From an uncultured Pelagibacteraceae bacterium (GTDB lineage: Bacteria; Pseudomonadota; Alphaproteobacteria; Pelagibacterales; Pelagibacteraceae), in assembly GCA_902588965.1 (NCBI GenBank), contig CACIRD010000004.1, positions 124,001-188,000 on the forward strand: a DNA stretch of 64,000 bases, written 5' to 3'. Shown one piece after another: positions 13,716 to 18,400 of the stretch. Below the pieces are notes generated by a model. The model made no database searches. It was given only the letters and a program-made list of their open reading frames with translations, and was not told the origin of the DNA. A program made the position numbers and the translations under genes. Position 1 is the stretch's first letter, and the number at the start of each line of letters is the position of its first letter.

Positions 13716-14567
13716 TTATTCCCCAATTTTTAATCTGTAAAAATCTTTTATTTTTAAATCTGGTATATTTAGTTCTTTTAAAATTTCATTAACTTTCTTT
13801 TTTGGCTCCATTACCCAGGGTTGGTTTAATAGGCTATTATCTTCTTTGAATTTATTTATTTTACCGAAAGATATTTTTTTTACAATTTCATCAGGCTTAC
13901 CAGAATTCTTTAATTCCTCAGTAATAAGTTCTTGTTCTTTTTTTAATATTTCACTATCTATACCTGAACTTTCAAGAGCTATTGGGCTTGAAGCAGCTAC
14001 ATGCATCGCTAACTGTTTACCAAATGAATTTAGATTTTCAGAATTATTTTTTGTTTGTAAAGAAATAATAACTGCTAATTTTGATAAATTATCTTTAACT
14101 ACAGTATGTAAATATGTAAAATTTTCTGAATCTTTATGTGAAATAGTTTTTGATCTACCAATGGTTATTTTCTCTCCAATTTTTGCAATTATAGATACAA
14201 TATTTTCATCAACAGTTTTTGAATTTTTCATTTTTGTTTTTTTAAGTTTTTCATTATCAGAGTCGCAATGATTATTAAGCTCGCTTATTTCTTTAACAAA
14301 ATTTATAAAATCTTCATTTTTGGCTACAAAATCTGTTTCACAATTTACTTCTATTACAGATGTTTTTTTATTATCTCCACTTATTGCTACTACTCCTTCG
14401 TTAGCCACTCTAGACATTTTTTTTGAAGCCTTAGAAATACCTTTAACTCTTAAATTTTCTACAGCTTTATCAAGATCACCGTTTGACTCTTGTATTGCTG
14501 AATTGCAGTCTTTAAAACCTGCTCCAGTGAGCTTTCTTAATTTCTTTATTTTTTCTACGTCACTCAT
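13716..14567 (-). CDS. tsf: translation elongation factor Ts
   Basis: Guanine nucleotide exchange factor for EF-Tu. The N-terminal UBA-like domain starts [18 protein letters not shown], continues through [16 protein letters not shown], and is followed by [17 protein letters not shown], the EF-Ts signature that contacts EF-Tu. The 283-residue length is normal, with a dimerisation region in the C-terminal half. It starts 3 bp after rpsB and abuts frr. Control probably comes from the structured leader in front of rpsB. Confidence 0.96.
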
Positions 14568-14570
14568 GAT

Positions 14571-15350
14571 TTAGTTTTTTTTTTGAGCTGACTCTTCTTT
14601 ATCTGGGCTTTTTTCTACTTGGGTTTTTGGTTTATCTTTATTCTCATTTTCAACGGAAATATTTGAATCTTTCTTAGCATTTTCAATAGTTTCTTTAATG
14701 AGCGTACAATAAAGATCTATTGATCTTCTAGCATCATCATTGCCCGGTATTGGAAAATCTATACCCTCCGGATCTGAATTTGTATCAAGTATTGCTATAA
14801 TTGGAATTCCAAGTTTTAATGACTCTTTTATAGCTAATGACTCATAATTTGTATCAATTACAAAAACTAAATCAGGTATTTTTTTCATTTGAGAAATACC
14901 ACCTAATGATCTTTGCAATTTATCTCTTTGTATACCCATTTTTAAAAGTTCTTTTTTTGTAAAACCACGATTTTCTGAAACTAAATCTATATTTAGTCTT
15001 TCTAATTTTTTAATTGAATTTGATATTGTGCCCCAATTGGTCAGCATACCTCCTAACCACCTATAATTTACAAAATACTGATCTGTCTCTTTTGCTAGTT
15101 CAGCAATAGCTTCTGATGCTTGTTTCTTTGTAGATATAAATAAAATTTTACCATTACTTGCTATAGTTTGGTAAATTTTTTGAAGTGCCATGTTCGCTAA
15201 TTCTAATGTTTGTGTAAGGTCTATAATGTGTATTGCGTCTCTTTTTCCAAAAATATATTTCTTCATTTTTGGATTCCATCTAAGTGTTTTATGTCCAAGA
15301 TGGACACCTGCTTCTAATAATTGTTGAATTGTTATATTTGGTATCTTCAT
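14571..15350 (-). CDS. rpsB: 30S ribosomal protein S2
   Basis: Component of the small ribosomal subunit. The signature stretches IQQLLEAGVHLGHKTLRWNP and the RWLGGMLTNWGTI and PDLVFVIDTNYESLAIKE blocks are all present. At 259 residues it carries a hydrophilic Lys/Glu-rich C-terminal tail of about 30 residues. It is preceded by a 125-bp leader with relatively high GC and long-range base pairing, annotated separately, and followed 3 bp later by tsf, the standard S2-EF-Ts pair. Confidence 0.97.
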   Translation of the reverse strand: MKIPNITIQQLLEAGVHLGHKTLRWNPKMKKYIFGKRDAIHIIDLTQTLELANMALQKIYQTIASNGKILFISTKKQASEAIAELAKETDQYFVNYRWLGGMLTNWGTISNSIKKLERLNIDLVSENRGFTKKELLKMGIQRDKLQRSLGGISQMKKIPDLVFVIDTNYESLAIKESLKLGIPIIAILDTNSDPEGIDFPIPGNDDARRSIDLYCTLIKETIENAKKDSNISVENENKDKPKTQVEKSPDKEESAQKKN

Positions 15351-15353
15351 ATT

Positions 15354-15424
15354 TTTTCCCGGTTATGCCACCACAATTATTTCCATTTAAGGACCGGAGG
15401 TATAAAACCACAAATTGTGTGCGT
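15354..15424 (-). ncRNA. candidate structured rpsB leader RNA (possible pseudoknot)
   Basis: The intergenic stretch before rpsB is clearly richer in GC than its surroundings. On the sense strand two long-range pairings can be drawn: CACAATT (15119 series, plus-strand 15413-15419) with AATTGTG (15372-15378), 7 bp; and CCGGT (15393-15397) with ACCGG (15359-15363), 5 bp, ending only a few bases before the rpsB start. The order is interleaved, so together they would form an H-type pseudoknot covering the translation initiation region. From memory, a comparative survey of Candidatus Pelagibacter reported a cis-regulatory RNA ahead of the S2 gene; this is probably that element. Exact boundaries and folding are inference. 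Confidence 0.65.
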
Positions 15425-15475
15425 ATTAATTTACGGGATATTTACAATTATATAGAAATTTAAACAAGTATTTTT

Positions 15476-18400
15476 TTAAGAAATATATGTGGAAATACCT
15501 TGGTTTTTTAGTAAATTTAAGTGTTTACGGTCAACAAATCTCTTATTTTTTAAATTAAAAATATATTTATTCTTTTCATCTTTTATTTTAATCTTCACCT
15601 CAGTATTGCCTGATTTAGATAAAATTTTCTCAATCATTTCTATTGATTTTTGATTGTCTATAAAAATCTCTACATTAGAAATTGGTTTATTTAACAAATT
15701 TTTTAATGATGCGATTTTTTTAACATTTATTCTCTTAAATCGATTATTTTCATCTGAAATATTTTTTGTGAGAGTTAATATTAATGAATTTCCATCTTTT
15801 AAAATTTCTCTATTAATTTCTAGCAAATCTGAAAAGATAAATATCTCGAAAACAGAACTTAAATCTGTAAGTTTGACTATAGCATATGAGTTGCCTTTTT
15901 GTGTTTTTTTTTCCTGAATTTTTAAGATTGTTCCTGAAACATTGGTATCCTTTGAGTTTTTTAAATGAATAAATTCATTAAAGTTAACAATTTTATAGTC
16001 TTCAAAAATTTCTTTATACTGATTCAGTGGATGGTCTGAAATAAAAAAACCCACTGACTCAAATTCTTTTGCCAATCTTTCTTCTATTTCCCAATCTTTG
16101 TCAATTTTGATTATATCTTCATCATTTTCTTCATTTAATTCAAATAAATCTTCTTGGTTAGCAATTTTATTTTCAAAAATTTTTTTCGATTTTGTAATCA
16201 AATTTGGTATCGACTCAAAAACTGATTTTCTATTATTGTTAATTTGATCAAATGCTCCTGCCTTTACTAATCCCTCTAGTTGAAGTTTATTTATGTCTTT
16301 TGGGTCAACTCTTTTAATAAAATTCAAAATTGATGTGTATTTTCCGTTTTTAACACGTTCTTTTACTATATTTGATACTGCTTCATAACCCACGTTTTTT
16401 ATACCGCCCAGAGCATAATAAAAATTTTTATCATCTGATTTAAAATCTGCGAAAGAACTATTAATATCAGGTCTGATAATATTGATATTCAGTCTTTTAA
16501 TTTCTTCATAGAACTCGCTTAATTTATTTTGGCTTGAAATATCCATTGTCATTGATGCTGAAAAGAATTCATTTGAATAGTAAGTTTTTAAATAAGCAGT
16601 TTGGTAAGCGATTATTGCATATGCTGCTGCATGACTTTTGTTAAACCCATATTCAGCAAATGGCTCTATTTTTAAAAAAATGCTTGCTGCTACGTCTTTT
16701 TTTATTCCATTTTTAACAGCTCCATCAATAAATCTCATTTTTTGTTTTTCTAGTTCAGATCTCTTTTTTTTACCCATAGCTCTTCTTAAAATGTCAGCCT
16801 CACCTGCTGAAAACCCAGATAGTCTTTGGGCTATTTGCATTACTTGTTCTTGATAAATAATTACTCCATAGGTTGGTTTTAATATTTCCTCTAAAAGCGG
16901 ATGAAGATAATCCGGTTGCTGTCTTCCATGCTTGCAATCATTATAAATGGGTATGTTCGCCATGGGTCCTGGTCTGTACAAAGCTACTAATGCTATAATA
17001 TCTTCTAAATGATTTGGTTTCATTTGCATCAATGCTTCTTTCATTCCAGCGCTTTCAAGCTGAAATAAACCTACAGTATGTCCCTTTGAAAGTAATTCAA
17101 AAACTTTTTGATCTTCATAGCTTATTTGATCTAAAGAAAATTTTTTATTTTTTTGGTTTACCAATTTTTCAGTCTTATCAATAACTGTGAGGGTTTTTAA
17201 ACCTAGAAAATCAAATTTGATTAAACCTGCATTTTCTGCTGAATACATATCAAATTGAGTAGAAGGTAGTATTAAGTTTGCTGAAGAGTCTTTGTATAAA
17301 GGCACCGTGTCGGTAAGTTTTTTATCAGAAATAACAACTCCAGCAGCATGTGTAGCAAAATTTCTATTTAGTCCTTCAAGTTTAAGAGATAGTTCTGCTA
17401 ATTTTTTAACTCTTGTGTCTTCTTTAATTAGTTTTTGTAATCTTGGTTCGTTATTTATACAATCTGTTAAACTTTGTGGTCTTGAAGGGTCGAAAGGTAT
17501 CATTTTAGATATACTGTCGACAAATCCATAAGGAAGACCCAAAACTCTTCCAACATCTCTAATAACCATTCTTGCTTTTAATTTTCCAAATGTGTTGATG
17601 TGAGCTACGCTATTTTTGTACTTTTTTGTGAGATAGTTAAATACTAAGTCTCTTTTTTCTTCACAAAAATCAATATCAAAGTCTGGCATTGAAATTCTAT
17701 CTGGATTCAAAAATCTTTCGAATATTAAGTTAAATTTAATTGGATCAACATCAGTTATTAATAAAGACCATGCCACAAGAGATCCTGCTCCCGACCCTCT
17801 TCCTGGTCCAACAGGAATTTGATTATTTTTTGCCCATTTAATATAGTCAGAAACAATTAAAAAATAACTTGAATACTTCATTTCGATTATAATTTTTAAC
17901 TCATGCTCTAATCTATCTTTATATTTTTTAAATTTTACGCTTTTATCTAATTCAGAAAGATTAATTTTAAATAATTTACTAAATTTTTCTTTTAATCCTG
18001 ATACAGACTCATTAATTAAAGTTTGATCAGCATTTCCATATTTATCTGAGCTGATATTTGGAAGAACTGGTTTAGAGTATTTAGGTCTAAAATTTAGTCT
18101 ATAAATAATATTATAGTTATTTTCAAGTGCTTCTGGTAAATCAAAAAATAATTTTTTCATTTCATCATCAGATTTAAGATAGTGTTGATTAGAAAATTTT
18201 ATCCTATTCTTTTCATTGACGTATGTTTTGTTACCAATGCAAATTAACGCATCGTGTGCTTCATGCATATCTTTATTTATATAAAAAACTTCATTACTTG
18301 CGATGATTGGTATAGAAAGCTCTTTTGATATGTTTAAATTAAATTTTTCAAAACTTTTTTCATTTGGGTCTCCATGTCGTTGGATCTCTATATAAAAATT

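Follow-up and report, generated by a model that had tools for sequence, protein, structure and literature searches.

The rpsB motif was described from Candidatus Pelagibacter ubique by Meyer et al. (2009, BMC Genomics 10:268; PMC2704228), and consists there of a stem P1, a junction with a short P2 (3 bp) and P3 (2 bp), and a pseudoknot of five pairs between the junction segment J2-3 and the 3′ extension. In one of the genomes in our set, G066, rpsB starts at 873284, the base right after the intergenic region 873155-873283 published in that work; by this match G066 is very probably HTCC1062. In Escherichia coli, ribosomal protein S2 represses the rpsB-tsf operon via its 5′ UTR (Aseev et al. 2008, reviewed in PMC10931766); the ribosome binding site is reported to lie outside the S2 operator, and S1 assists and is needed for effective repression (reviewed in PMC10931766). 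The DNA treated here is a stretch of 64,000 nucleotides from an uncultured Pelagibacteraceae bacterium (‘the window’ from here on), whose first-pass annotation had suspected a link between the leader of its rpsB gene and the published Pelagibacter S2 leader. The suspicion was right: the same motif, pseudoknot included, is the one reported in PMC2704228.

On the minus strand of the window dnaE (ending at 15476), rpsB and tsf follow each other in an operon, and the 125 nt separating dnaE from rpsB hold both of the pairings that had been proposed for this leader, CACAATT (15419-15413) with AATTGTG (15378-15372) and CCGGT (15397-15393) with ACCGG (15363-15359), all on the minus strand. They do cross, the second opening within the loop of the first and closing beyond that stem. 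The set of pairings is larger than first noted, however, as P1 is 10 bp long when the pairs below the first 7, beyond a bulged A, are counted, and encloses the short hairpins P2 and P3. From 5′ to 3′ on the minus strand, the parts of the locus are:

15439 to 15467, minus strand: likely rpsB promoter, TTGTTT (15467-15462), a 17-nt spacer and TAAATA (15444-15439) preceded by TG
15413 to 15423, minus strand: 5′ strand of P1, CGC-A-CACAATT, with the bulged A at 15420 (RF01815 alignment; covariation with 15369-15378 in 54 leaders)
15399 to 15409, minus strand: P2, short hairpin GGU...ACC of 3 bp (75% of cells across the order are paired; PMC2704228 likewise gives P2 3 bp in Cand. P. ubique)
15393 to 15397, minus strand: 5′ strand of the pseudoknot, CCGGU, in junction J2-3 (CCGGU in 138 of 140 leaders, CCUGU in 2)
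15383 to 15392, minus strand: P3, short hairpin CC...GG of 2 bp, weak (68.5% of cells paired; PMC2704228 likewise gives P3 2 bp in Cand. P. ubique)
15369 to 15378, minus strand: 3′ strand of P1, AAUUGUGGUG (covariation with the 5′ strand of P1)
15359 to 15363, minus strand: 3′ strand of the pseudoknot, ACCGG, followed by 8 nt up to the rpsB AUG (ACCGG in 137 of 140 leaders, the compensated ACAGG in 2, ACCGA in 1)
14571 to 15350, minus strand: rpsB, ribosomal protein S2, 259 aa (Pfam PF00318 Ribosomal_S2, 288 bits, E = 4.1e-86)
13716 to 14567, minus strand: tsf, elongation factor Ts, the next gene of the operon (Pfam PF00889, 204 bits)

The rpsB leader is therefore a three-stem junction whose J2-3 pairs with the 3′ extension, and not a bare H-type knot. 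The annotation had predicted an H-type pseudoknot ending just before the rpsB start; the pseudoknot and its position stand, whilst the type does not, since an H-type has two stems only and loops free of further helices, and here P2 and, weakly, P3 form inside P1. As an observation apart, the stretch UACCUCC at J2-3 (15396-15402, minus strand) equals seven bases of the 3′ tail of the same genome's 16S rRNA, and is common in the genus. We set mimicry of the 16S aside as its explanation, because other genera carry CCCCCGG or CUACCGG at that J2-3 site.

A sensitive Rfam scan matches the leader to RF01815 (‘rpsB’) at 15341-15423 on the minus strand, over positions 1-132 of the 132 of the model, with 35.4 bits and E = 1.6e-5. 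This lies below the RF01815 gathering score of 40 bits, which is the curators' cut-off and not a structural feature, so that a default Rfam scan omits the leader. RF01815 matches occur in 22 of the 61 relatives searched within the order and in 88 of 142 alphaproteobacterial genomes, but none of those 61 genomes has one at 40 bits or more, even though this lineage is the one in which the motif was first found, and standard annotation consequently leaves these leaders unlabelled. The low score is probably due to the model expecting a longer P2 and P3. The leader has these features of the family: it sits in the rpsB 5′ UTR, with the rpsB start (15350) directly downstream, its P1 carries the bulged A and the conserved CACA...UGUGG, the 5-bp pseudoknot joins J2-3 to the 3′ extension, and P2 (3 bp) and P3 (2 bp), weakly supported as they are, have the sizes known from Cand. 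P. ubique. The Rfam matches to ar15 (E = 3.6) and Histone3 (E = 2) were set aside as chance.

Starting from rpsB starts found by protein search, independently of any RNA, 140 leaders were gathered from Pelagibacterales, 118 of them of the window's family and 22 of a sister family (L159-L180). Both strands of the pseudoknot are present in all 140, and fully pairable in 139. In an alignment of 54 diverse leaders from across the order, in which 20 pairs were scored, 89.6% of cells are standard pairs, compared to 81.5% after shuffling and no more than 48.1% with the partners slid; two-sided changes occur at 12 of the 20 pairs, and the covariation score of the whole structure is 0.248, against 0.118 for shuffled alignments (0 of 500 reach the observed value) and at most 0.087 for slid ones. 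P1 varies on both sides, one pair being GC in 36 leaders and AU in 17, and another UA in 35, CG in 14 and AU in 3; its forms include CACAATT/AATTGTG, CACAGTT/AACTGTG, CATAGTA/TACTATG, CGAAGAA/TTCTTCG, CAGAGAA/TTCTCTG and CGCAGTT/AACTGCG. P2 is supported within the window's family and takes another register in the sister family. One rpsB leader (L187:155-253) has a much longer P2 region, with some 20 extra bases compared to other SAR11 leaders. A model was also built from the alignment, the window's leader being among its training sequences; across the window it has one real match, the rpsB leader described here, at 97.1 bits.

The pseudoknot, by contrast with P1, is nearly invariant: CCGGU/ACCGG is found in 137 of the 140 leaders, and there is one single mismatch, CCGGU/ACCGA. 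One SAR11 lineage has exchanged both sides, to CCUGU/ACAGG (L079 and L088, and also L225); since L079 and L088 are mutually nearest by rpsB DNA, the two are taken as a single event. Outside SAR11, another alphaproteobacterium (L209, CUGGU/ACCAG) has compensated independently, and at a different pair. Two pattern scans of 397 genomes revealed no further compensated SAR11 lineage, the sole true rpsB leader among their hits being L225, of the known CCUGU/ACAGG lineage; L223, L224 and L226 lacked a CCGGU-like partner or an rpsB start and were discarded. Judged from the sequences at hand, covariation of the pseudoknot in SAR11 thus rests on few events, since it is nearly invariant, and direct contacts with protein, besides pairing, could account for such strict conservation. 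The comparison of SAR11 leaders that had been suggested as a check has therefore come out in favor of the fold, as P1 covaries, the pseudoknot is compensated in two lineages, and uncompensated variation of the stems, which would have spoken against them, is not what the leaders display.

Upstream of the element, a block of the type CTTGTT, 16 nt, TGTAAAT recurs among relatives, TGTAAAT being found in 45 of 140, more than 90% of which have CTTGT at a fixed offset of −22. A generic sigma-70 promoter scan made no call at this block. From it we infer a transcription start, which is predicted near 15432, about 10 nt upstream of P1, so that the 5′ UTR would be essentially the element itself.

What, then, could such a leader be doing? 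With high confidence, we regard it as the SAR11 form of the known S2 leader, in which S2 would stabilise the pseudoknotted fold and thereby repress rpsB and tsf; by analogy to the E. coli work, translational autorepression by S2 is the most likely function. P1 closes the junction with the short P2 and P3, whilst the 5-bp pseudoknot joins J2-3 to the 3′ tail, and up to the rpsB start the transcript probably consists almost wholly of the element. Free S2, when in excess over 16S rRNA, would bind and stabilise this fold, lowering the translation of rpsB and, along with it, of tsf, and the closed 3′ strand of the pseudoknot may directly occupy the landing place of the 30S subunit. Since regulation by S2 has been shown only in E. 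coli, with a ribosome binding site outside the operator and with help from S1, the mechanism in SAR11 may differ.

The spacing to the start codon is where such a difference might lie. ACCGG ends 8 nt before the AUG in 91 of the 118 leaders of the window's family (range 4-10), and 8-10 nt before it in the 22 of the sister family, which read ACCGGAG, so that a GGAG Shine-Dalgarno overlaps the pseudoknot strand. In other alphaproteobacteria the distance, in the readable cases (about a third of loci could not be parsed), is mostly 13-23 nt, in an interval that usually contains AAGGA or AAGGAG, the exceptions being L205 (9 nt) and L219 (where an ATG within the spacer was picked up). Counted from the AUG, the SAR11 3′ strand lies at about −13 to −9, where a Shine-Dalgarno usually sits. 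The genome's 16S keeps the anti-Shine-Dalgarno CCTCC, but only 6 of the 51 genes in the 64-kb window have a match of at least four bases within the 20 nt upstream of their start. We therefore dropped the notion that the loss of the Shine-Dalgarno is special to rpsB, as the motifs are rare throughout the window and their scarcity looks like a genome-wide trait. The tight spacing, which as a lineage feature may be undescribed so far, hints at direct occlusion of initiation. A bolder reading, which we put forward tentatively and hold somewhat less probable than its opposite, is that the SAR11 S2 operator has been compacted, the pseudoknot serving as a ribosome-entry switch and the Shine-Dalgarno-bearing spacer of other alphaproteobacteria being gone, so that S2 would block initiation by direct occlusion, and not from a distance as in E. 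coli.

Two other functions have to be weighed against autorepression by S2. The element might sense another ligand, such as S1 or an S2-S1 complex, instead of free S2 alone; the dependence of E. coli S2 on S1 (PMC10931766) lends this some weight, but the tie of the motif to rpsB, seen in PMC2704228 and again in all leaders of this study, speaks for S2 as the principal sensor, and we hold the alternative unlikely. Less likely still, with little chance of being correct, is a constitutive role, in which the element would enhance translation or stabilise the mRNA of a highly expressed gene by keeping the initiation region open or shielding the 5′ end, S2 exerting no feedback. An mRNA starting at the predicted site would indeed be capped by the element, and where Shine-Dalgarno motifs are this rare other features of initiation may count; S2-dependent repression, however, has been demonstrated for the family in E. 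coli (PMC10931766), and a pseudoknot strand beside the AUG more naturally hinders than helps. The view that the two pairings cross by chance, or reflect a feature at the level of DNA, as a folding energy no better than that of shuffled sequence might suggest (MFE −18.5 kcal/mol, z = 0.00; 90 of 200 shuffles fold as well), is refuted by the covariation, besides the conservation in 140 of 140 leaders and the match to a curated family, and has next to no probability left.

The folding energy, which gives no support of its own, is in fact uninformative here, because a short A+T-rich pseudoknot is not representable by the folding program. The UCCCG (15438-15434)/CGGGA pairing of the MFE structure, a rival to the pseudoknot, is an artefact of folding a single genome, as CCCG occurs within 30 nt upstream of the element in 1 of 140 leaders. 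The leader had also been called GC-rich for its surroundings; it is (40.8% G+C against 28.8% in the window), but as 6.6% of all 71-nt windows are equally G+C-rich, only as a modest outlier. Among 20,000 dinucleotide shuffles of the leader, 154 (0.8%) produce a 7-bp stem that a G+C-rich stem of 5 bp crosses; none of 6,394 71-mers sampled from the window has such an arrangement. The decisive evidence for structure is the observed conservation and covariation, which, with the RF01815 match, bear out the first-pass reading of the rpsB leader as structured.

With this larger SAR11 set, a regulatory RNA known from the literature is confirmed for bacteria that rank among the most abundant in the ocean. 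Added to it are covariation throughout SAR11, pseudoknot lineages with compensation, the close spacing of 8 nt and the finding that none of the 61 genomes searched in the order reaches the Rfam cut-off. The spacing offers a simple, testable idea of how S2 might block initiation where Shine-Dalgarno sites are scarce.

In comparison with known systems, the window's leader is an ordinary member of a known, already published family, and not a new one. It shares with the rpsB motif RF01815 (PMC2704228) the gene, strand, position, the junction of P1, P2 and P3 and the CCGGU/ACCGG pseudoknot between J2-3 and the 3′ tail, and nothing essential differs, P2 and P3 being here at the short end. The SAM-V riboswitch of SAR11 (PMC2704228) is likewise a pseudoknotted Pelagibacter leader near a start codon, but with another fold, other genes and another ligand. 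With the S2 operator of E. coli it has in common the leader position in the rpsB-tsf operon and, according to Meyer et al. (PMC2704228), the motif family; whereas the ribosome binding site of E. coli is reported to be no part of the operator, the SAR11 pseudoknot strand stops 8 nt short of an AUG that usually has no Shine-Dalgarno.
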